Assembly: GCA_022819855.1 (NCBI GenBank)
Contig: JAJEGN010000008.1
Span: 124,001-188,000 of the forward strand
Length of the DNA stretch: 64,000 bases
Direction of reading: 5' to 3'
From: Gammaproteobacteria bacterium
GTDB taxonomy: Bacteria; Pseudomonadota; Gammaproteobacteria; Steroidobacterales; Rariloculaceae
A program made the translations under genes and the position numbers. Below, piece after piece: positions 143 to 44,354 of the stretch. The notes beneath the pieces are model-generated. The model had not been told where the DNA came from and ran no database searches. It saw only the letters and a program-made list of their open reading frames with translations. Within the stretch, counting starts at the first letter, position 1. Each line of letters starts with the position of its first letter.

Positions 143-865
143 GTGACAGCCGATCCGCCGGCATCCGTGATCGCAATCATCGTCGCGCTCGCATCGGAAC
201 GCGTCTGCGTGGAAGCCGGGCTCGGCGACGACCGCATGGCCATGCTGGTGGTGAAGCAGAGCGGACCCGGTCCTGGCAACGCTGCCGCCGCGGCGCGCGC
301 CGCCGCGGAATCCGGCGCCGATGCGATGGTGTCGCTCGGCCTCGCCGGCGGACTCGCGCCTCGCCTGCAACCCGGAACGGCCGTCGTGCCGGACCGGATC
401 ATCCTGGCGAACGGTGAAACGCTGGCGACGGATTCCGACTGGAAAACCCGAATCGTCACGGCACTCCGGACGGAGCTTGCGATCGACGAAGGCGCGTTGC
501 TGATCGCCGACACGGTGCTCGACACGCCTGACCGCAAGGCCGAAGCCGCCTCGACCACCGGTGCGGTTGCCGTCGACATGGAGTCCGGCGCGATCGCCGC
601 CGTTGCTGCAAGTGCGGGACTGCCGACCGTGGCGGTACGCGTTGTCGCGGACTGCGCAACCGATACCCTGCCGGCCGGGATCGAGCGATGGATCGACTCC
701 AGGGGGCGCCGCCGGCTCCGACCGATCGCGGCCGCGATACTGAACCCCGTTCAATGGCCGGTACTCGCATTGCTTGCCCGGCGCCACCATGCGGCGCAGC
801 GTGCGCTGAAGAGCGCGGCCGGGCGGCTGGCCCGGACGGGTTTCGAATTCGCGCCGCGGCCGTGA
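143..865 (+). CDS. hpnG: HpnG-like phosphorylase (adenosylhopane to ribosylhopane)
   Basis: A 240-residue protein of the purine/uridine phosphorylase - MTA/SAH nucleosidase superfamily. A short hydrophobic strand is followed by a Gly/Ala-rich segment with SLGLAGGL near residue 65 and the diagnostic AVDMESGAIA near residue 145, where the Met-Glu pair contacts the ribose in this superfamily. In hopanoid clusters this family (HpnG) removes adenine from adenosylhopane. The function is assigned here because hpnA and hpnH lie in the same operon. The start is a GTG; no better in-frame start was seen. It is cytoplasmic and likely cotranscribed with everything to 7850. A free nucleosidase is the alternative, but the neighbours make that less likely. 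Confidence 0.85.
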   Translation: MTADPPASVIAIIVALASERVCVEAGLGDDRMAMLVVKQSGPGPGNAAAAARAAAESGADAMVSLGLAGGLAPRLQPGTAVVPDRIILANGETLATDSDWKTRIVTALRTELAIDEGALLIADTVLDTPDRKAEAASTTGAVAVDMESGAIAAVAASAGLPTVAVRVVADCATDTLPAGIERWIDSRGRRRLRPIAAAILNPVQWPVLALLARRHHAAQRALKSAAGRLARTGFEFAPRP

Positions 866-885
866 CCGACCCTGCAGCTCGGAAC

Positions 886-1881
886 ATGCCGATGAAGACC
901 CTCGTGACCGGTGCGAACGGCTTTGTCGGCGCGGCCGTCGTGCGCGCGCTGCTGGCAGACAAGCGGCCCGTGCGGGCGCTCGTACGTGCCTCGAGCGACT
1001 GCAGGAACCTCGAAGCCCTGCCCCTGGAGATGGTTCGCGGCGATCTCCACGATGCGCAATCGCTGCGCGCCGCGGTCGACGGATGCCGCTTCGTGATGCA
1101 CGTCGCGGCCGACTACAGGCTCTGGGCGCCCGACGCCGAACCGATGTACGAGACGAACGTGCGAGGTTCCGTCCGCGTGCTCGAAGCGGCTGCCGAAGCG
1201 CGCGTCGAGCGGATGGTCCATACGTCGAGCGTCGCCGTTCTCGGTGCACGCGCAGGTGCGGTTCCCGCGGACGAGACGACTCCGGTGACGCTTGCCGACA
1301 TGATCGGCCCGTACAAGCGCTCGAAGTACCTGGCCGAGCAGGCCGTTCGGGAACGCGCCCTGGAACTCGGATTCCCCCTGGTCATCGTGAACCCGTCAAC
1401 CCCGATCGGGCCGGGCGACGTCAAACCCACGCCGACAGGCCGTATCATTGTCGATGCGGCGAACGGCCGGATTCCGGCGTTCGTCGACACGGGTCTCAAC
1501 ATCGTGCACGTTGACGATGTCGCCCGCGGTCATCTGCTTGCGCTTGACCACGGCAGCGTCGGCGAACGCTACATCCTCGGCGGGACGGACATGAGCTTGC
1601 AGGAGATTCTCCAGACGATCGCCACACTGACCGGACGCAGGGCGCCCCGCATCCGTCTGCCGCGCCGTGCCGCCTATCCGCTTGCGGTCTGCGCCGAGGC
1701 GGTCGCGGCCGTCACGGGCGCCGAACCGCTCGTGAGCCGCGATGCCGTGCGCATGGCAGCGAAGCACATGTATTTCTCGAGCGCGAAAGCCGGGCGGGAG
1801 CTTGGTTACACGTGGCGCGAACCGGGCGCCGCGCTCGCCGACGCGCTCGAATGGTTCAGGCACAACGGCTACGTCGGCTGA
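886..1881 (+). CDS. hpnA: HpnA-like hopanoid-associated NAD-dependent sugar epimerase/reductase
   Basis: A 331-residue extended short-chain dehydrogenase. The Rossmann nucleotide loop TGANGFVG lies at residues 7-14, and the catalytic YxxxK appears as YKRSK near residue 143. The pattern IVNPSTPIGPGDVKPTPTG is typical of the hopanoid-associated (HpnA) branch that is also annotated as dihydroflavonol-4-reductase-like. The open frame extends 66 codons further upstream over hpnG, but homology begins at this ATG; a GTG at 862 overlapping the hpnG stop is the main alternative. Only one base separates its stop from the next gene, so translation is probably coupled. The exact reaction of HpnA is not established, although the family is strongly linked to hopanoid clusters. 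Confidence 0.85.
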   Translation: MPMKTLVTGANGFVGAAVVRALLADKRPVRALVRASSDCRNLEALPLEMVRGDLHDAQSLRAAVDGCRFVMHVAADYRLWAPDAEPMYETNVRGSVRVLEAAAEARVERMVHTSSVAVLGARAGAVPADETTPVTLADMIGPYKRSKYLAEQAVRERALELGFPLVIVNPSTPIGPGDVKPTPTGRIIVDAANGRIPAFVDTGLNIVHVDDVARGHLLALDHGSVGERYILGGTDMSLQEILQTIATLTGRRAPRIRLPRRAAYPLAVCAEAVAAVTGAEPLVSRDAVRMAAKHMYFSSAKAGRELGYTWREPGAALADALEWFRHNGYVG

Positions 1882-1882
1882 G

Positions 1883-2872
1883 ATGATCAAGGCTGCTGCT
1901 GCACGCGCCAGGTCGAACATTGCCCTGGTCAAGTACTGGGGCAAGGCCAACGGCACGCTGAACGTACCCGCCGTCGGCTCGATATCGATCACGCTCGACG
2001 CGCTCCGGTCGGATACGGAAGTCGTCTTCGACCCCGCCCTCGAAACGGACGAACTGGTGCTTGACGGCGAACCCCGTCCCGACGGGCTCGTCCGGGTCTC
2101 GGCCTGTCTCGACATCCTGCGGGAGCTTGCGGGCATCGGGACGCGCGCGGCAGTCGTGAGCCGCAACAACTTTCCGACCGGCGCCGGGCTCGCGTCTTCG
2201 GCGTCGGGTTTCGCGGCGCTCGTCGGCGCCGCGGCGCGGGCGCTCGGGCTTGAGCTGTCGCCCAGGGAACTCAGCATCATCGCACGGCGGGGCTCGGGCT
2301 CCGCGGCACGCTCGATATTCGGTGGATTCGTCGAGATGCACGCAGGAAATGCCCGTGACGGGCTCGACAGTTACGCCGAACCGCTCCTGCCCGGCAAGGA
2401 GTGGCCGCTTCATGTCGTCGTCGCAGTGACATCGACCGGCGAGAAGGCGGTCGCTTCGGGCAGCGGCATGCGGCATTCCGCTCGATCCTCGCCCTACTAC
2501 GCCGCATGGCTCCAGACGCATCCCGGCGACATGGCGCTCTGCCGTCAGGCCATCCGCACGCGCGACTTCGATGCGCTCGCCGAGATTGCCGAGGCAAGCT
2601 GCCTGAAGATGCACGCCGCCGCCATGGCCGCAGTCCCCGCGTTGATCTACTGGAACGGGACTACCGTCGAGTGCATCAACCGCATCCGGCAACTGCGAAT
2701 GTCCGGACTCCCGGTCCTGTTCACCGTCGACGCGGGCCCGCAGGTCAAGGCGGTCTGCACGCCGGATGCGCGCGCCGCGGTGCGGGACGCTCTGGCCGCC
2801 ATGCCCGGCGTCGTCGAGATCATCGAAACCGGGCTCGGACCCGGCCTGGAGACGCACGAGTGCGCTTCGTAG
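1883..2872 (+). CDS. mvaD: Diphosphomevalonate decarboxylase
   Basis: A 329-residue GHMP-fold enzyme that converts diphosphomevalonate to isopentenyl diphosphate with ATP, the last step of the classical mevalonate pathway. The N-terminus carries the family signature SNIALVKYWGK; the phosphate-binding loop is GAGLASSASGFAAL near residues 99-112; and the catalytic aspartate is in FTVDAGPQ near residue 284. Length matches the family (about 320-330). It starts one base after hpnA ends and overlaps the next gene by 13 bases, which places it firmly in the operon. Seeing the classical pathway in a hopanoid-producing proteobacterium is itself uncommon, because most use the MEP route. Confidence 0.93.
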   Translation: MIKAAAARARSNIALVKYWGKANGTLNVPAVGSISITLDALRSDTEVVFDPALETDELVLDGEPRPDGLVRVSACLDILRELAGIGTRAAVVSRNNFPTGAGLASSASGFAALVGAAARALGLELSPRELSIIARRGSGSAARSIFGGFVEMHAGNARDGLDSYAEPLLPGKEWPLHVVVAVTSTGEKAVASGSGMRHSARSSPYYAAWLQTHPGDMALCRQAIRTRDFDALAEIAEASCLKMHAAAMAAVPALIYWNGTTVECINRIRQLRMSGLPVLFTVDAGPQVKAVCTPDARAAVRDALAAMPGVVEIIETGLGPGLETHECAS

Positions 2873-3867
2873 CGCGTGCGCCCGGCAAGCTCGTCGTCCT
2901 CGGCGAATACGCGGTTCTCGACGGCGCGCCGGCACTCGTGATCGCCGTCGACCGCTACTGCCGCGCAAGCATCGGCCCGAGTGAAGACTCCGCCTGTCAT
3001 CTCGAAACCCGGGCGCCTCTGTCCCGGCGGGTCCGACGGACGCCCGGAGAGCCGAGCGGCGTTGCGCTCGTCGATCTCGTTTGCAGCGAGACGCACGGCC
3101 TGCAACGGCTCAAGCCATGGCGTGCCGTGCTCGACTCGACAGAACTCTTCGGTGCTCGCGGCAAGCTCGGGCTCGGCTCGAGTGCAGCGGCGCTCAGCGC
3201 CTGGGCCGGAGTCTGGGCGGCCTGGGCCGGCGCCGGCGGACTGCGGACGCCGAAGCCCGCCGTCGAGCGATTGATCCGGCTGCACCGGGCGTTGCAGGAT
3301 GGCGCCGGCAGCGGACTGGATGTCGCCGCGTCGCTGACGGGCGGCGCCATCGAATATCGCCTCGAAGACACCGCGGTTCCTCGTGTCGCTACAGTCCGAC
3401 TGCCGAAACGTGTACCATTGAAAGGGGTTTTTACTGGCAGCGCCGCGTCGACGCCCGGCCTCGTGGCCCATTACAGGCAGTGGGCCGCGGCTCGGCCGGA
3501 AGCCGCGCAACGGCAACGGCAGATCATGGCGTCCGTCGCCGAGGCCGGTTGCGCTGCTGCACGGAACGACGATGCAGACGCTTTTCTCGCGGCAGTCACC
3601 GACTATGGGAGGCATCTCGACAGTTTGGGCAAGGCCATGGGTGCGGATATCGTGACCGCGGAACACCGCGCGATCGGCGCCGCCGCCGACGATCACGGTA
3701 TCAGCTACAAGGTCAGCGGCGCCGGCGGCGGCGATCTCGGAGTCGCATTCGCGCGCGACCCCGACGCGCTCGAAACGTTCGCGTCAGCCGTCCGCACGAA
3801 GGGGTACCGGATCATCGATCTCGATCTCGACCGGCATGGCCTGACCGTCGAGGACACCACGGAATGA
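2860..3867 (+). CDS. mvaK2: Phosphomevalonate kinase (GHMP family)
   Basis: A 335-residue GHMP kinase predicted to phosphorylate mevalonate-5-phosphate. It opens with ARAPGKLVVLGEYAVLDG, the substrate-end motif of the Erg8/MvaK2 type, and has the phosphate loop GLGSSAAALSAW near residues 108-119 and a C-terminal GAGGGDLG glycine motif. A GTG at 2860, inside the end of mvaD, gives the family-length protein; the open frame upstream of this is a shadow of mvaD. Its TGA overlaps the ATG of the next gene (ATGA). The order decarboxylase, phosphomevalonate kinase, then reductase/kinase fusion makes a classical rather than archaeal-type pathway the simplest reading. Confidence 0.88.
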   Translation: MRFVARAPGKLVVLGEYAVLDGAPALVIAVDRYCRASIGPSEDSACHLETRAPLSRRVRRTPGEPSGVALVDLVCSETHGLQRLKPWRAVLDSTELFGARGKLGLGSSAAALSAWAGVWAAWAGAGGLRTPKPAVERLIRLHRALQDGAGSGLDVAASLTGGAIEYRLEDTAVPRVATVRLPKRVPLKGVFTGSAASTPGLVAHYRQWAAARPEAAQRQRQIMASVAEAGCAAARNDDADAFLAAVTDYGRHLDSLGKAMGADIVTAEHRAIGAAADDHGISYKVSGAGGGDLGVAFARDPDALETFASAVRTKGYRIIDLDLDRHGLTVEDTTE

Positions 3868-6137
3868 GTTCGCAAGGCCTGAGAATTCCGGAGTTCTACA
3901 AGCTCAGCGTCAGGGAGCGGGTCCGGGCCGTCCACGAACGCGGCATGCTCACGGCGGACGACTTTCGCTCGCTTTCGACGGGCCAGCACACCCTGGACCT
4001 GTCGTCTGCAGACAGGATGGTGGAGAACGTCGTCGGCATCATGGGATTGCCGCTCGCTCTCGGCATGAACCTGCTCGTCAATGACAGGCAGTACGTCGTA
4101 CCCATGGTTGTCGAGGAACCTTCGGTCGTGGCCGGACTCGGCTCCGCATGCAAGCTCATCAGGAACGCGGGCGGATTCACGGCCACGTCGAGCGATCCGA
4201 TCCTGATCGGCCAGATCCAGCTCATCGATCTGCCCGACGTCGATGCCGCGAGGCAGGCGCTCGACGACCGCAGGAGCGAAATCCTCAATCTCGCCAACAG
4301 CTTTCATCCCAACATGGTCGCGCGGGGCGGCGGCGCGCGCGACCTCGAACTCTTCGTGCATCGGCTGCCTTCCAGCGGCGAACCCATGCTCGTGATCCAC
4401 CTGCTCGTGGACACGCGCGATGCCATGGGCGCCAACCTCGTCAACGGCATGTGCGAGGGCGTCTCCCCGCTGATCGAATCGATCACCGGCGGACAGGCCT
4501 TTCTGCGGATCCTGTCCAACCTCACCGATCGCGCCCTCGTGCGCGCAAGCTGCACGATACCCGTGAGCGCACTCGCCGGCCGCGGTTACACGGGCAAGGA
4601 AGCGCGCGACGGCATCGTGGTCGCCGCCGACTTCGCGGCCGTCGATCCCTACCGGGCCGCGACTCACAACAAGGGCATCATGAACGGCATCGATCCGCTT
4701 GCGATCGCGACCGGCAACGACTGGCGCGCGATCGAGGCGGGTGCGCATGCCTATGCCTGCCGGGCCGGACAATACACGTCGCTCTCGGACTGGCGGACGG
4801 ATGCAGAAGGCAACCTGCACGGCCGCATCGAGATTCCCATCAAGGTCGGTATCGTCGGAGCGCCGCTCGAATCGAATCCCACTGTCGCGCTCAACCTCCG
4901 GCTGCTCGGGGTCGAATCGGCCACGGAACTCGCCGAGGTCATGGCGGCCGTGGGACTCGCCCAGAACTTCGCCGCGATCCGCGCGCTGGCGACCGAGGGC
5001 ATACAGAAGGGTCACATGACGCTGCATGCGCGCAGCGTCGTCACGGCAGCGGGTGCGGCCGTGAGGGAGTTCGACGAAGTACTCGACCGGCTCGTGCAAA
5101 GCGGTGTGATCAAGATCTGGAAGGCGCGCGAGATCATCGACAAACTGCGCGGCGAACGGAAGCGAACCAACGGTTCGCGCCGCAAGCGACGCGCGGACGC
5201 GAAACTCGGCACGGGATTCGGCAAGGTCGTGCTGCTCGGCGAACATGCGGTCGTTTACGGGCGCCACGCGATCGGCGCGCCCGTGCCCATGACGATCAAG
5301 GCCCTGATCGAGGATTGCGACGCGGGCATCCACCTCATGATTCCGCGTTGGGGCGTCGAATACGAACTCGCGGCGGACCCCAGGGAGCGGCGCTCGTTCG
5401 AACGGCCTGCCGGCGTCGTGCTCGACAAACTCGGTCTCGGCGGGCGCAGCATGCGTATCGAAGTCTTCCCCGACGTGCCGCGCGGCATGGGGCTCGGCGG
5501 ATCGGCGGCGATGGCCGTCGCCATCGTGCGCGCCCTCGACAGGCACTTCGAACTGGGCCTCTCCGATGCCGAGATCAATTCACTCGCATTCGAATCGGAG
5601 AAGATCGCCCACGGCAGCCCGAGCGGACTCGACAACACGATCGCGAGCTACGGCAAGCCGGTCGTTTACCGCCCCGGGGACCCGCCGCTCGTCGAACCGT
5701 TGAACGTCACCGAACCCATTGCGGCCGTCATCGGCATGAGCGGCGCCGAGGGACTGACCGCGACGACCGTGCGGCGCGTGCGCGAAGCCTGGCGCAAGAA
5801 CCCTAAACTCTACGAACGCATCTTCGACGAGATCGACGCGCTGACCTTGCGCGCCGTCCAGGCCATTCAGGACCGCGATCTCGAGTTGCTCGGGGAGCTG
5901 ATGAACATCAATCACGGCCTGCTCAACGCGCTGCAGGTGTCAACGCCCGAACTCGAGCAACTCGTCGAAACGGCGCGCAGGCACGGCGCGCTCGGCGCGA
6001 AGCTCACCGGCGGCGGCGGCGGCGGCTCGGTGATCGCGATCTGCGACGGCGATACCGAGCCGGTTGCGAAGGCGATCAGGGCGGCGGGATTTCAGGCGGT
6101 GGCGGTCAACCTGGGGGCGGATCTCGATGGCCCGTGA
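3864..6137 (+). CDS. Bifunctional class II HMG-CoA reductase - mevalonate kinase fusion
   Basis: A single 757-residue frame carries two consecutive mevalonate-pathway enzymes. Residues 1 to about 425 are a class II HMG-CoA reductase: catalytic Glu in VVEEP (84/85), nucleotide motif DAMGAN (186-191), Lys in THNKG (270), Asp in TGNDW (286) and His in LHARS (388). After a basic linker (about 430-447) residues 450-757 are a mevalonate kinase with LLGEHAVVYG (457-466), GMGLGGSAAMAVAI, SPSGLDNTIASYG and a C-terminal Gly-rich loop. There is no stop and no plausible internal start at the junction, so a covalent fusion is encoded. It would turn HMG-CoA into mevalonate-5-phosphate without releasing mevalonate. 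The ATG overlaps the upstream stop as ATGA; the end overlaps idi by 11 bases. Each domain is assigned with high confidence; activity of the fusion is inferred. Confidence 0.92.
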   Translation: MSSQGLRIPEFYKLSVRERVRAVHERGMLTADDFRSLSTGQHTLDLSSADRMVENVVGIMGLPLALGMNLLVNDRQYVVPMVVEEPSVVAGLGSACKLIRNAGGFTATSSDPILIGQIQLIDLPDVDAARQALDDRRSEILNLANSFHPNMVARGGGARDLELFVHRLPSSGEPMLVIHLLVDTRDAMGANLVNGMCEGVSPLIESITGGQAFLRILSNLTDRALVRASCTIPVSALAGRGYTGKEARDGIVVAADFAAVDPYRAATHNKGIMNGIDPLAIATGNDWRAIEAGAHAYACRAGQYTSLSDWRTDAEGNLHGRIEIPIKVGIVGAPLESNPTVALNLRLLGVESATELAEVMAAVGLAQNFAAIRALATEGIQKGHMTLHARSVVTAAGAAVREFDEVLDRLVQSGVIKIWKAREIIDKLRGERKRTNGSRRKRRADAKLGTGFGKVVLLGEHAVVYGRHAIGAPVPMTIKALIEDCDAGIHLMIPRWGVEYELAADPRERRSFERPAGVVLDKLGLGGRSMRIEVFPDVPRGMGLGGSAAMAVAIVRALDRHFELGLSDAEINSLAFESEKIAHGSPSGLDNTIASYGKPVVYRPGDPPLVEPLNVTEPIAAVIGMSGAEGLTATTVRRVREAWRKNPKLYERIFDEIDALTLRAVQAIQDRDLELLGELMNINHGLLNALQVSTPELEQLVETARRHGALGAKLTGGGGGGSVIAICDGDTEPVAKAIRAAGFQAVAVNLGADLDGP

Positions 6138-6699
6138 GCAAATCGTCTCGAGCGACAGCGAGGAGCTGATTCTCGTCGACGAACTCGACCGGGAGATCGG
6201 GGTCAAGGCCAAGAGCGAGTGTCACGCCGGCAACGGCATACTCCACCGGGCCTTCTCGATCTTCGTCTTCAACGGCGCCGACGAGCTGCTGCTGCAACAG
6301 CGCAGCGGTCAGAAACCATTGTGGCCGAACTACTGGTCGAACACCTGCTGCTCGCATCCGCGCAGCGGCGAATCCATGGACGAAGCCCTTACCCGGCGGC
6401 TTTCGGAGGAACTCGGGTTCGAGTGTCCGCTGCACTACCTCTACAAGTTCAAGTATCACGCCCAATACGGCGCGCTTGGTGCCGAGCACGAGTATTGCTG
6501 GGTATACTACGGGCGCCACGACGGCGGCATCGATGTCAACGTCAACGAGGTGGCCGACTGGCGGTTCGTGGACGTGGCGTCGCTGAACGCGGAACTCGAA
6601 CTGCACACGGACCGGTTCACACCCTGGTTCAGGATGGAATGGGCGCACATCAGCAACAATTTTCTGGACGATATCCTTGCGGGCATGGGCCCCAGGTAA
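6127..6699 (+). CDS. idi: Isopentenyl-diphosphate delta-isomerase, type I
   Basis: A 190-residue Nudix-fold isomerase interconverting IPP and DMAPP, required when IPP comes from mevalonate. Visible landmarks are the metal/catalytic cysteine in SNTCCSHP near residue 78, the Nudix-like helix around LSEELGFECPLHYLYKFKYHA, and the second catalytic glutamate in EYCWVYYG near residue 124. The ATG at 6127 lies within the end of the reductase/kinase fusion gene, giving an 11-base overlap; the open frame extends further upstream but without homology. Placement between the kinase fusion and hpnH ties isoprenoid supply directly to hopanoid side-chain assembly. Confidence 0.93.
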   Translation: MAREQIVSSDSEELILVDELDREIGVKAKSECHAGNGILHRAFSIFVFNGADELLLQQRSGQKPLWPNYWSNTCCSHPRSGESMDEALTRRLSEELGFECPLHYLYKFKYHAQYGALGAEHEYCWVYYGRHDGGIDVNVNEVADWRFVDVASLNAELELHTDRFTPWFRMEWAHISNNFLDDILAGMGPR

Positions 6700-6728: not shown

Positions 6729-7850
6729 ATGGGAATCCCCTTGGTACAAAAGTACCGGATCGGCCGCTACATCCTCGAGCAGAAGCTCAAGCGCAACACG
6801 CGCTATCCGCTCGTGCTCATGCTGGAGCCGCTGTTCCAGTGCAATCTGGCCTGTGCGGGCTGCGGCAAGATCGACTACCCCGACGACATCCTGCGCAAGC
6901 GCGTGAGCGTCGAGGACGCGCTCGCGGCGGTCGACGAGTGCGGCGCGCCGGTCGTCTCGATCCCCGGAGGCGAACCGCTGATCCACAAGGAGATGCCGCA
7001 GATCGTGAAGGGCATCATCGAGCGGAAGAAGTTTGTGTATCTGTGCACGAACGCGTTGCTGCTCGAACAGAAGATCGTTGACTACGAGCCCTCCCCCTAC
7101 CTGACGTTCTCGATCCACCTCGACGGCAACCGCGAGCGCCACGACGAATCGGTCTGCCGCGAGGGCGTGTTCGACAAGGCGATTGCCGCGATCAGGACGG
7201 CCCGCGAACGCGGCTTCCGGGTCACGGCCAACTGCACGCTCTACGCCGGCGAAGATCCCGACGACGTCGCCGACTTCTTCGACTATGCGATGACGCTCGG
7301 CATCGAGGGCATCATGGTCTCGCCGGGCTACAGCTACGAACACGCGCCTCGCCAGGACGTCTTCATGGGGCGGCGCAGGTCCAAGGAACTCTTCAGGTCG
7401 ATCTTCCGGCGCGGGCGCGCGCGCGGCAGCAGGTGGCGCTTCAACCAGTCGAGCCTGTTCATGGATTTCCTGGCCGGCAACCAGACCTTCCAGTGCACGC
7501 CCTGGTCGAATCCGACCTACAACGTCTTCGGCTGGCAGAAACCGTGCTACCTGCTCGTCGACGAAGGCTACGCCGACAGTTTCCAGGAACTCATGAGCAC
7601 GACCGACTGGGACCGCTACGGCACGGGCATCAACCCGAAGTGCGACAACTGCATGGCGCACTGCGGCTATGAAGGCACGGCGGTCGAACGCATGATCGCA
7701 AGACCGTTACAGGCACTCAGGGTGTTCCTGTTCGGACCCGAACTCGACGGTCAAATGGCGCCGGAACTGCCCGTCCTGCATGGCGGCCAGCCGGGCGGCG
7801 TAGCGATCCCCGTCGATCACGTCGGCAGGCTGGACCGCGACGGGCATTAG
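6729..7850 (+). CDS. hpnH: HpnH-like radical SAM adenosylhopene transferase
   Basis: A 373-residue radical SAM protein. The cluster-binding CxxxCxxC is Cys38, Cys42 and Cys45 (FQCNLACAGCGK), followed by the SAM-contact motif SIPGGEP near residue 78. A C-terminal set of cysteines (PKCDNCMAHCGYEG near residue 305) is characteristic of the HpnH group. HpnH joins a 5'-deoxyadenosyl radical to diploptene, giving adenosylhopane, the substrate of HpnG at the other end of this operon. The 29-base gap before it contains an AGGAACAGG ribosome-binding region. Family identity is strong; the reaction comes from studies of other bacteria. Confidence 0.9.
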   Translation: MGIPLVQKYRIGRYILEQKLKRNTRYPLVLMLEPLFQCNLACAGCGKIDYPDDILRKRVSVEDALAAVDECGAPVVSIPGGEPLIHKEMPQIVKGIIERKKFVYLCTNALLLEQKIVDYEPSPYLTFSIHLDGNRERHDESVCREGVFDKAIAAIRTARERGFRVTANCTLYAGEDPDDVADFFDYAMTLGIEGIMVSPGYSYEHAPRQDVFMGRRRSKELFRSIFRRGRARGSRWRFNQSSLFMDFLAGNQTFQCTPWSNPTYNVFGWQKPCYLLVDEGYADSFQELMSTTDWDRYGTGINPKCDNCMAHCGYEGTAVERMIARPLQALRVFLFGPELDGQMAPELPVLHGGQPGGVAIPVDHVGRLDRDGH

Positions 7851-7883: not shown

Positions 7884-9344
7884 CTACCGGACGAAGCGGT
7901 AGTACTCGATCCCTTCGTCGCTGAAATTCGGGTTCGCGTTGTTGCCGACGGAGTCGACGACAAAGCCGCTGGGCGGCGTGTCAAGGCCGTCGGCTTCGCC
8001 GGTATCGTGTAGCGACTCGTACTGCGCGCGGTTCAGATTCTGGTAGTCGCCAAGGGCAGCGCCGAAACGGATCCTCGCGGCCGCCTCGGCCCAGTCGTCG
8101 CAAACCGTCATGGGCAGGGCTTCGGCCGCGTCTCCGCTGCCGTAGCCCACCGCAAGCACGTTGCGTCCGGCGAGTTCCAGTTTGCGATCGCGGGCGTCTT
8201 CCATGCCGGCCGCAAGCCACGCCGGCAGAGCCGCACAGTAGATGTTGCCGACATCCATCATCGCCTCGGTGCCGAGCGACATTTTTGACCTGACGAGGCC
8301 GAAGTCCGGACTTGCGCGGAACTCGCGCAGCACGCGCATGCTGAGGGGATACGCATCCGCATCGATATTGTCGTCCTTGACGAGCTGCAGGACATCGGGC
8401 CTGGAATTCATCTCGGCGACGAGTTCATCGACGCCGAAATCCATGCCGCGGCAGAGCCGCTCGAGCGTCGCGCGACCCGCGTCGCCATCGCGGCCAAGCG
8501 CAAACAGCCAGCTCATCGCGAACGACGATTCGGGCATTCGGTGGTAGGGGCGGTGCATGAAAACGGCCGCAAGTTCCCGGTAGTACTTCGCCGGTTCCGA
8601 ACCCATGCGCTGCGTCATGTCGTCGAGCGCGTGCAGCGTTTCGTCGAGGTAGCACGTCGTGGAGTACTTGCCGTTGAAAACCGGCAGGTCCTGGAAATGG
8701 CAATTCAGCGTGCCGCGAATGATGTTGCGCAGCACCGGCTTTCGAAAGTCGATGGCGCGGTAGGACGATGCGCTGCCGATGTGGGCGAGATCGACGGACA
8801 GCAGTTTCGGGTCGCGCTCGACGAGCATCGCCACCGCGCCGGCACCCTGGGTCGGCTCGCCGGAGCTGCCCCGCGCATATTCGGCGATATCGGCGCTGAC
8901 GACGATCGCGCAACGGTCCAGCGGCTCGAGCGCAAGGTACCTCAGCGCATACTTGAGCGCGTAGACTCCGCCGAGGCAGGCATGCTTGACCTCCGGCACT
9001 TCGCAGTTGCGGTTGATCGTCGTGCTTCCCTGCCCCTTGAGCGCTTCGTCGACCATGCCCTTGACGATGACGGCGCCAGCGGAATTGTCGGTGCTCGATT
9101 CCGTGCCCAGGCCCAGAAAACCGACGCGGCCAGGATCGATATCGTAGCGCTCGATGAGCCGCATCACGGCGGTAGCTGCGATCGTGTAGACGCTTTGCGC
9201 CGGACCGCGCATGCGGAAGCTGCGGCCGATGACGGCCTGGGTCTTGTCCCAGGGGGAGCCCGTCCAGTCGCACCATGAACGCAGGTCGACCCGGTATGGC
9301 GGTACGTAGACTGCGAATCCACTGATACCGACGGGATGCCTCAT
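7884..9344 (-). CDS. mvaS: Hydroxymethylglutaryl-CoA synthase
   Basis: A 486-residue thiolase-fold enzyme that condenses acetoacetyl-CoA with acetyl-CoA. The catalytic Glu is in LGTESSTD (residue 82), the acyl-accepting Cys in KHACLGGVYAL (residue 123) and the catalytic His in FMHRPYHRMP near residue 275. At 486 residues it is longer than typical bacterial MvaS (about 390), with an extended C-terminal part resembling longer homologues. It is convergent with the mevalonate/hopanoid operon and has its own upstream region, so first and later steps may be regulated separately. The ATG start is followed at once by the conserved GISGFAVYVPPYRVD strand. No acetoacetyl-CoA thiolase is nearby. Confidence 0.92.
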   Translation of the reverse strand: MRHPVGISGFAVYVPPYRVDLRSWCDWTGSPWDKTQAVIGRSFRMRGPAQSVYTIAATAVMRLIERYDIDPGRVGFLGLGTESSTDNSAGAVIVKGMVDEALKGQGSTTINRNCEVPEVKHACLGGVYALKYALRYLALEPLDRCAIVVSADIAEYARGSSGEPTQGAGAVAMLVERDPKLLSVDLAHIGSASSYRAIDFRKPVLRNIIRGTLNCHFQDLPVFNGKYSTTCYLDETLHALDDMTQRMGSEPAKYYRELAAVFMHRPYHRMPESSFAMSWLFALGRDGDAGRATLERLCRGMDFGVDELVAEMNSRPDVLQLVKDDNIDADAYPLSMRVLREFRASPDFGLVRSKMSLGTEAMMDVGNIYCAALPAWLAAGMEDARDRKLELAGRNVLAVGYGSGDAAEALPMTVCDDWAEAAARIRFGAALGDYQNLNRAQYESLHDTGEADGLDTPPSGFVVDSVGNNANPNFSDEGIEYYRFVR

Positions 9345-23062: not shown

Positions 23063-24337
23063 TCAGTTCAGGTGGGCCCAGGCCAGCCAGGCGGAGGCGT
23101 TCAAGGGCACGTTGTGGACGCGAAGGATATCGACCCCCTGGGCGATCAGTTTCAGCGATGCGCCCGCGGTTGCGAGATCGCGCGCCTCGTTGTCGACGGG
23201 CGCGAAGCTCTTCATGAATGATTTTCGCGAGTGGCCAACGAGGCAGCGCAGGCCCGAGCGTCGGAAACCGGCCGCACCGCGCAGGAGCCTGAGCGACTGC
23301 AGCGGATCCTTGCCGAAACCGATCCCCGGGTCGAAGATGATACGGTCGAGGTCCACGCCGGCCCGAGTCCAGACTGCCATTCGTTCGTCGAGCCAGCGTT
23401 CGAGGGTCTCGCAGGGGTCGCAGTCGGTCGGCAGCGTCCGCGCCGGATCCGCCGGCAGCGTGACGCTGTGCATCGCGACGAAGTCCGCGCCGTTCGCCGA
23501 AGCCAGTTCGATCATTTCCGGAGAGGTCAGCCCGCTCACGTCATTGATCATGTCGGCGCCGCTCTCCAGCGCGCGCCGCGCGATGTCGACGTGGTAGGTG
23601 TCGACGCTGATCGACGGCCGCAGCCGCTGACCCGCGTACTTGTCGACCAGCCGTTCAAGAACCGGCGCGAGCCGCGACCACTCCTGCTCCGCACTGAGCA
23701 ATCGGGCACCCGGGCGCGTCGATTCGGCGCCAAGATCCAGAAACTGGGCACCTGCGGCAACCGCTCGCTCGGCGCGCGATTCGATGGCCGCCCAATCGAC
23801 AAGCTCGCCGCCGTCCGAAAACGAGTCCGGCGTGATGTTGAATATGCCCATCCACAGCGGGATGTGATCGTCGAGTTCGGACGACCAGTCGAGCACGGTC
23901 TTCGCGCCGAGACCCGGAATCGTCAGCGAAGGCTCAAGCGCGATCAAGGGCGTCAGGACGAAGTTGCGTCGCTCCAGTTCCGGATGCGGGATCCTGAGCC
24001 GGTCGGTCACGATCCGCTCGCGGCCCCAGAGCAGGATGTCGATGTCGGCCGGCCGCGGCGCCCACTTGTCGGCGTCGCCGCGGCCGAGTTCTGCTTCGAT
24101 CCGCTTCGCAAGGCTCAACACGGTTTCGGGATCGAGATCCGTGGCGCATTTCGCGACAAGATTCAGAAACGGGCGGTTCCATTCCGCCAGTGCGCCTTCC
24201 GGCAGAAGCGCCGGCGACTCGATCACCGGCGACAGGCGCACGACCCGCACACCGCCTCGCTCGAGCGCCTCGATGGCGCTCTCCAGGTTGGCGCGTCGGT
24301 CGCCGACGTTGGAGCCGAGTCCGAGAAAAATGTCCAT
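23063..24337 (-). CDS. folK-folP: Bifunctional HPPK-dihydropteroate synthase (FolK-FolP fusion)
   Basis: A 424-residue fusion of two successive folate enzymes. Residues 1 to about 155 are 6-hydroxymethyl-dihydropterin pyrophosphokinase: LGLGSNVGDRRANL at the start, the PALLPEG/NRPFLN region and APRPADIDILLWG near 92-104. Residues about 160-424 are dihydropteroate synthase: GIFNITPDSFSDGG, LDLGAESTRPGA, SVDTYH, INDVSG, DPGIGFGK and the C-terminal HSRKSFM and RVHN. It converts hydroxymethyldihydropterin and pABA to dihydropteroate. The order FolK then FolP matches fusions in eukaryotes; in proteobacteria the genes are usually separate. PabB nearby supplies the pABA branch. Confidence 0.93.
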   Translation of the reverse strand: MDIFLGLGSNVGDRRANLESAIEALERGGVRVVRLSPVIESPALLPEGALAEWNRPFLNLVAKCATDLDPETVLSLAKRIEAELGRGDADKWAPRPADIDILLWGRERIVTDRLRIPHPELERRNFVLTPLIALEPSLTIPGLGAKTVLDWSSELDDHIPLWMGIFNITPDSFSDGGELVDWAAIESRAERAVAAGAQFLDLGAESTRPGARLLSAEQEWSRLAPVLERLVDKYAGQRLRPSISVDTYHVDIARRALESGADMINDVSGLTSPEMIELASANGADFVAMHSVTLPADPARTLPTDCDPCETLERWLDERMAVWTRAGVDLDRIIFDPGIGFGKDPLQSLRLLRGAAGFRRSGLRCLVGHSRKSFMKSFAPVDNEARDLATAGASLKLIAQGVDILRVHNVPLNASAWLAWAHLN

Positions 24338-42641: not shown

Positions 42642-44354
42642 ATGGGAGCGTTCAAGGAACCCCACGGAGGGGAATTGAAGAACTGCTACTTGTCGGCGAA
42701 CGCCGTCGCCGACGAGAGAGCGCACTCGCGCGAGCTGCCGTCCTGGGATCTCACGATGCGGCAGCTCTGTGATCTGGAACTCCTGCTCAACGGCGCCTTC
42801 TCGCCGCTCGACGGGTTTCTCGGCGAAGCCGACTACGACCGCGTCCTGGCCGAAATGCGGCTATCGAGCGGCGTGTTCTGGCCGATTCCGATCACGCTCG
42901 ACGTGGACGAGCGCTTCGCCGAACCGCTCAGGGAAGGCGACACGATCGCGCTCCGGGACGCCGAGGGCGTTCTGATCGCCACGATGGAGCTATCGAGCAT
43001 CTTCCGTCCGGACTTCGAACACGAAGCACGGTCGGTGTTCGGCACGGTCGACGACACGCATCCCGGCGTCAATCACCTGCTCAAGCGCACGCACGGCGTC
43101 TATCTGGGCGGACGCCTCAAGGGTGTCGAAGCGCCGACGCATTATGACTTCAAGCACCTGCGCGACGATCCGCAGGAGCTGCGCGATCGGTTCAGAAAGC
43201 TCGGCTGGCGGCGCGTGGTTGCGTTCCAGACCCGCAATCCCATGCACCGCGCGCACCAGGAACTCACGTTCCGCGCGGCGAAGGAAGCCGAGGCCAACCT
43301 GCTGATCCACCCGGTCGTCGGCATGACGCAGCCGGGGGATGTGGATCACTTCACGCGCGTGCGCTGCTACGAGCACCTGCTGCCGCATTATCCCGAGCAG
43401 ACGACCATGCTGAGCCTGCTGCCGCTCGCCATGCGCATGGCGGGTCCGCGAGAGGCGGCCTGGCATGCCCTGATTCGCAAGAACTTCGGCTGCACGCATT
43501 TCATCGTCGGCCGTGACCACGCCGGACCCGGAGCAGGACGCGACGGCAAGCCGTTCTACGGTCCCTACGATGCCCAGCGCCTCATGACCGACTTCGAGAA
43601 GGAGCTCGACATCACGATGGTGCCGTTCAGAAACGTGGTCTACGTCGAGGATCGGGCGCGCTACCTGCCGCAGGACGAGATCCCCGAAGGCACACGCACG
43701 CTCGGCATCTCCGGTACCGAGCTCCGGCGGCGGCTGCGCGACGGTCTGGAAATCCCGGAGTGGTTTTCCTTCCCCGAGGTCGTTGCCGAACTCAGGCGGA
43801 CGCATCCCCCGCGGCACCGGCAGGGGTTCACGGTGTTCTTTACGGGGCTTTCCGGCGCCGGGAAATCGACGGTAGCCAATGCTCTCATGGTCAAGCTCAT
43901 GGAAATGGGAGGACGGCCAGTGTCCCTTCTCGACGGCGACATCGTGCGCAAGCATCTGTCGAGCGAACTCGGGTTCTCCAAGGAGCACCGCGACCTCAAC
44001 ATCCTCAGGATCGGCTACGTCGCGAGCGAGATTACGAAGAACCGCGGCATCGCGATCTGCGCGCCGATCGCGCCTTACGCCGAGACCCGCCGGCGCGTGC
44101 GTGAAATGATTGAGCCGCACGGCGGTTTCATCGAGATTCACGTCGCAACGCCGCTCGAGGTCTGCGAGCAGCGCGACCGCAAGGGCCTCTACGCGAAGGC
44201 GCGCGCCGGCCTGATCAAGGGATTCACCGGCATCAGCGACCCGTACGAGGTTCCCGAGAACGCCGAGATGTCGGTCGACACTTCCAACCTGACGCCCGAT
44301 CTCGTCGCCCACCGCATCGTCATCAAACTCGAGAGCGCCGGCTTCATTCGCTGA
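42642..44354 (+). CDS. sat-cysC: Bifunctional sulfate adenylyltransferase / APS kinase
   Basis: A 570-residue fusion. Residues 1 to about 390 are ATP sulfurylase, with QTRNPMHRAH near residue 197 and GRDHAGPGAG near 291 forming the nucleotide site. Residues about 395-570 are APS kinase with Walker A GLSGAGKST near 404, DGDIVRKHLSSELGFSKEHRDLNI and the KGLYAKARAG substrate loop. It makes PAPS from sulfate and two ATP. The ATG follows GGAGAAGCGAGAACGAAT. It pairs functionally with the sulfite reductase genes at 47-49 kb, but the PAPS reductase linking them is absent from the window. Confidence 0.94.
   Translation: MGAFKEPHGGELKNCYLSANAVADERAHSRELPSWDLTMRQLCDLELLLNGAFSPLDGFLGEADYDRVLAEMRLSSGVFWPIPITLDVDERFAEPLREGDTIALRDAEGVLIATMELSSIFRPDFEHEARSVFGTVDDTHPGVNHLLKRTHGVYLGGRLKGVEAPTHYDFKHLRDDPQELRDRFRKLGWRRVVAFQTRNPMHRAHQELTFRAAKEAEANLLIHPVVGMTQPGDVDHFTRVRCYEHLLPHYPEQTTMLSLLPLAMRMAGPREAAWHALIRKNFGCTHFIVGRDHAGPGAGRDGKPFYGPYDAQRLMTDFEKELDITMVPFRNVVYVEDRARYLPQDEIPEGTRTLGISGTELRRRLRDGLEIPEWFSFPEVVAELRRTHPPRHRQGFTVFFTGLSGAGKSTVANALMVKLMEMGGRPVSLLDGDIVRKHLSSELGFSKEHRDLNILRIGYVASEITKNRGIAICAPIAPYAETRRRVREMIEPHGGFIEIHVATPLEVCEQRDRKGLYAKARAGLIKGFTGISDPYEVPENAEMSVDTSNLTPDLVAHRIVIKLESAGFIR

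Follow-up and report, generated by a model that had tools for sequence, protein, structure and literature searches.

We identified a gene in which a class II HMG-CoA reductase and a mevalonate kinase, two consecutive enzymes of the mevalonate pathway, are joined in one polypeptide. It lies in a gammaproteobacterial genome of the order Steroidobacterales, within the 64,000 nucleotides analysed here (hereafter the window; GenBank assembly GCA_022819855.1, contig JAJEGN010000008.1, positions 124,001 to 188,000). HMG-CoA reductase is among the most studied metabolic enzymes and is the target of statins. Its fusion to the next enzyme of the pathway is present in at least five bacterial phyla, yet absent from curated protein families and from the literature searched. 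The best reading of this protein is a new architecture of known enzymes, and it is very likely a genuine bifunctional enzyme that would convert HMG-CoA into mevalonate-5-phosphate. The fused gene stands in for the usual bacterial isoprenoid route in a large, mostly uncultured bacterial group.

Frame and domains of the fused gene

The gene occupies positions 3864-6137 of the forward strand as a single ATG-started frame of 757 codons plus stop, without internal stop; the chance of such a long frame is about 6e-9 at this base composition. In the NCBIfam scan, the HMG-CoA reductase model TIGR00532 matches residues 7-389 with 388 bits (cut-off 259.95) and the mevalonate kinase model TIGR00549 matches residues 453-725 with 238 bits (cut-off 163), and the Pfam scan concurs on both domains. 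The two NCBIfam models matched separately, no combined reductase-kinase model was returned, and neither scan found an acetoacetyl-CoA thiolase domain, as at the N-terminus of MvaE, in the protein. The original prediction of one uninterrupted frame is borne out, and both halves score well above the curated cut-offs.

The reductase core comprises residues 1-383 (positions 3864-5012). Alignment to the Pseudomonas mevalonii enzyme (PDB 1qax) equates the catalytic residues E85, K270, D286 and H384 with E83, K267, D283 and H381. The prediction was therefore right in calling the class II reductase complete and in naming E85, K270 and D286, and wrong in naming His388, which is the second histidine of GHMTLH; the first, H384, is the catalytic one. 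E54, E85, K270, D286 and H384 are invariant among 70 fused proteins. The C-terminal flap domain (residues 384-430, positions 5013-5153) starts at H384; the 1qax alignment reaches residue 430 and covers the P. mevalonii flap domain, consistent with a three-helix flap. In class II enzymes this flap shuts over the active site, supplies the catalytic histidine and opens for mevalonate release (PMC10070635).

Published class II reductases of the NADPH type carry the motif (H/Y)xSxxxR, and those of the NADH type Dx(V/L)xxxL (PMC13370337). The corresponding helix of the fusion, HPNMVAR (residues 148-154), agrees with the former in its histidine and arginine and has asparagine where serine stands; the H and R of HxNxxxR are kept in 69 of the 70 fused proteins. 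Because HxNxxxR is near (H/Y)xSxxxR and unlike Dx(V/L)xxxL, NADPH is probably the likelier cofactor. Since the third motif position is N, R or K in fused proteins, and not S, NADPH use stays a prediction.

The kinase domain (residues 450-757, positions 5211-6134) belongs to the GHMP family. It contains K454, GEHAVVYG at 459-466, S547, E579, D590 and the glycine loop TGGGGGG at 715-721, so that the GEHAVVxG motif, the catalytic Lys, Glu and Asp and the glycine loop are all present. K454, E460, H461, S547 and D590 are invariant over the 70 fused proteins; E579, G716 and G718-G721 are likewise invariant in fused proteins. Together with the TIGR00549 match, these columns confirm the predicted complete mevalonate kinase.

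Operon and genome setting

The fused gene is part of a tight, overlapping set of forward-strand genes reaching from mvaD to idi. The diphosphomevalonate decarboxylase gene mvaD (1883-2872; TIGR01240, 280 bits, cut-off 171) is followed by a probable phosphomevalonate kinase gene with a GTG start (2860-3867; TIGR01220, 4e-25, below cut-off, and a conserved neighbour), which overlaps the fused gene by ATGA. The 3' end of the fused gene is in turn overlapped by idi, encoding a type 1 isopentenyl-diphosphate isomerase (6127-6699; TIGR02150 and NF002995 over cut-off). Most loci, in different phyla, show the same gene order, mvaD-pmk-fusion-idi.

Upstream of mvaD lies hpnA, a hopanoid-associated epimerase gene (892-1881, forward strand; TIGR03466, 482 bits, cut-off 368), and hpnH, encoding an adenosyl-hopene transferase (6729-7850, forward strand; TIGR03470, 540 bits, cut-off 225), adjoins the operon on the other side. 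With an hpnG-like frame, these hopanoid genes (window 143-1881 and 6729-7850) surround the mevalonate operon; some recur near it in four relatives (L002, L007, L010 and L017), and the genome carries two squalene-hopene-cyclase family genes. A divergent HMG-CoA synthase is encoded on the reverse strand (7884-9344; TIGR01835, 8e-48, below all NCBIfam cut-offs). Of 40 fused loci, 14 have a relative of this synthase close by; such relatives show 50-70% identity and come from Gammaproteobacteria and Actinomycetota.

The draft genome consists of 22 contigs and is 97.7% complete. Across it, the fusion protein has a single match and just one mevalonate kinase exceeds the cut-off; we found no second copy of either enzyme. 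The MEP enzymes Dxr and IspH were not found in the whole genome, and the MEP route was rejected as a backup on this ground. Since the fusion comprises the sole reductase and the sole kinase and Dxr and IspH are missing, IPP appears to be reached, and all isoprenoid precursor flux of this genome carried, through the fusion alone.

Two further fusions were noted in the window. On the reverse strand, a single frame of 424 residues at positions 23063-24337 carries an HPPK domain together with a dihydropteroate synthase (Pterin_bind) domain, a second case in which consecutive biosynthetic enzymes are joined. Positions 42642-44354 (forward strand) combine PUA_2, ATP-sulfurylase and APS kinase domains in one frame, a known type of bifunctional sulfate-activation enzyme.

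Distribution and origin of the fusion

A database search for proteins covering both domains, which the original prediction had proposed, showed the fusion to be present in many genomes of several phyla and not unique to the window. Among 196 genomes of the same order, strong matches were obtained in 131, and in 121 of these the match spans the full length within a single open frame. The remaining ten comprise two (G101 and G147) in which the flap is shortened and both domains share a frame, seven partial matches and one broken case, the congener G034: a 23-base deletion at the fusion junction (L128, contig C50, at about locus position 4510) disrupts the frame and takes away the first kinase strand with the start of the kinase motif, which may be an error of the draft assembly. 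Dxr was detected in 60 of the 196 genomes and never together with the fusion (0/196). Neither was found in five, three of which have clustered mvaD/pmk-like matches; in these three the missing fusion is probably due to contig breaks. In this large gammaproteobacterial order, the MEP and mevalonate routes are clean alternatives, with the fusion as the mark of the latter.

In a whole-phylum sample of 398 genomes, a full-length match was found in one genome besides the window's own, and 14 other matches cover the reductase part only. Outside this phylum, we found the fusion in Calditrichota, Acidobacteriota, Planctomycetota and Actinomycetota, which brings the total to at least five phyla. Named carriers are Dyella monticola, Cryobacterium species, Nakamurella, Calditrichaceae, Acidobacteriota, a planctomycete, Salinisphaera and Woeseiaceae, the Dyella monticola and Cryobacterium carriers being cultured strains. 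Of the 16 named fusion genomes checked, 12 lack Dxr, Dyella monticola among them; the other four, from the three Cryobacterium carriers and an acidobacterium, have both routes.

One branch parts fused from unfused proteins in a carefully built tree of 55 reductases, with a support of 100/100, and a single change between the two states suffices in all 200 bootstrap trees; the sample was collected with the fused protein as query, and separate fusions elsewhere could escape it. A larger, quick reductase tree agrees. The kinase tree gives two changes, with one also allowed, and is too dominated by long unfused branches to discriminate between them. Multiple independent fusions were rejected, as the reductase tree requires only one change. 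Because the fused reductases form one clade and the operon is conserved, the data fit a single fusion event, after which the gene would have been inherited vertically and passed between phyla.

Proposed function and comparison with known systems

From domain content and conservation, we infer the conversion of HMG-CoA into mevalonate-5-phosphate by one polypeptide; the two activities, the cofactor, the benefit of the fusion and its oligomeric form are likewise inferences. The N-terminal class II reductase would reduce HMG-CoA to mevalonate with two NAD(P)H, probably NADPH, and the C-terminal GHMP kinase, presumably hanging by a flexible linker from the far end of the mobile reductase flap, would phosphorylate mevalonate with ATP to mevalonate-5-phosphate. 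The phosphomevalonate kinase, MvaD and Idi of the operon would then yield IPP and DMAPP. Most likely, the fusion provides a 1:1 output of both activities and pulls the reductase product locally into the ATP-driven step, and any real channelling would be partial.

The junction between the two domains is informative in this respect. The linker proper (residues 431-449, positions 5154-5210) is basic, as had been predicted, which holds for the window's genus and not for the fusion family as a whole. Outside the nearest relative, its amino-acid identity is 11-42%, whereas the domains keep 73-82%. Comparison of the window's gene with other family members gave dN/dS ratios of 0.08-0.24 for the reductase core and the kinase and 0.14-0.39 for the flap; linker values, where computable, were 0.3-1.5 and noisy due to its short length. 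All gaps in this comparison are whole codons. Reductase and kinase are thus both under purifying selection, and the linker is weakly constrained. The junction (residues 425-453) is 28 residues long in the window and ranges from 9 to 84 residues across relatives, the longest, in a Cryobacterium sp. fusion (L044), containing tandem GRESL repeats. Weak constraint and very variable length suggest that the linker acts as a flexible tether and not as a fixed tunnel.

Substrate channelling, in which the kinase would receive mevalonate from the reductase before it enters the bulk pool, is attractive in that consecutive pathway steps are joined in one chain and the kinase sits on the very flap that must open for mevalonate release (PMC10070635). 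The variable length and poorly conserved sequence of the junction, however, speak against a fixed docked channel and make a conserved docked interface unlikely. Tethering alone would generally channel small, fast-diffusing products only a little. We therefore consider channelling improbable, while a loose tether that acts through local concentration is possible. Equally doubtful is the idea that the kinase takes part mechanically in the reductase cycle: attached to the end of the flap, it would move with the flap and receive mevalonate as the flap releases it. Three Woeseiaceae-like relatives (L132, L037 and L133, the last on the contig of L032) have lost the later flap portion, and their kinase Lys follows 27-31 residues past the catalytic His, compared with about 70 in usual members. 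Because the kinase comes almost immediately after the catalytic-His helix in these short-flap relatives, it may have taken over the role of the flap there.

It is very unlikely that the cell contains two proteins, generated by cleavage of the linker or by additional translation of the kinase from an internal start. Several members of the same family do carry an ATG immediately ahead of the kinase (MGVGYGK), which may be left over from a free kinase gene, but the window's genus and many others lack it, and of 16 such ATGs 13 have no Shine-Dalgarno-like sequence. The linker in the window contains no ATG, GTG, TTG or CTG codon. From codon 416 up to the kinase motif, possible starts are limited to CTG 428, which sits in the last flap helix, and GTG 456 and CTG 457, which lie within the first kinase strand. 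An internal kinase start was thus rejected, in line with the original prediction that no plausible one exists, whereas proteolytic cleavage would be compatible with the sequence.

The chance that assembly or annotation artificially joined two neighbouring genes is negligible: the draft state of the genome and the adjacent but separate reductase and kinase genes of Virgibacillus, Oceanobacillus and Myxococcaceae would permit it, but the same single frame in 121 of the 196 genomes and in the cultured Dyella monticola and Cryobacterium strains refutes a lost stop or frameshift, and a sequencing artefact is ruled out by relatives with an intact frame in five phyla, by purifying selection on both halves and by linker indels of whole codons. 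The same evidence supports well the prediction of one reductase-kinase polypeptide distinct from the thiolase-reductase MvaE.

MvaE and IspDF appear as fusions in a 2026 review of bacterial isoprenoid pathways, in which a word search gave no reductase-kinase fusion (PMC13001223). In a 2026 preprint, which includes a network of 6,924 bacterial reductases, 'fusion' refers to maltose-binding-protein constructs only (PMC13370337). The original statement that no such fusion is well described agrees with our search, in which neither the literature nor curated families held an account of it; subscription papers were outside our reach, and an earlier mention is possible. With junctions of 9-84 residues and some shortened flaps, the fusion family offers a natural test of whether joining consecutive enzymes leads to channelling, and the fusion would be a ready single-gene part for isoprenoid production.

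Among known systems, the P. mevalonii reductase (1qax) resembles the fusion over its full length, including the flap and the four catalytic residues, but is free-standing and has the NADH motif Asp146/Leu148/Leu152, where the fusion has H148/N150/R154 and, past the flap, an added kinase. Enterococcus faecalis MvaE likewise joins a class II reductase to a neighbouring mevalonate-pathway enzyme (PMC10070635); there, the upstream thiolase is attached at the N-terminus and the flap is free, whereas the fusion carries the downstream kinase at its C-terminus, on the flap. The solved TIGR00549 kinases 2hfs, 6mde and 2x7i share membership of the GHMP family, the GEHAVVYG motif and the conserved Lys, Glu and Asp with the fusion, but known kinases of this family are separate proteins, while the fused kinase has no start codon of its own. 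In the Bacillaceae Virgibacillus, Oceanobacillus and Ornithinibacillus, finally, the kinase gene directly follows the reductase gene on the same strand, yet in two frames, with the order HMGR-MK-mvaD-pmk and a kinase that is about 32% identical.
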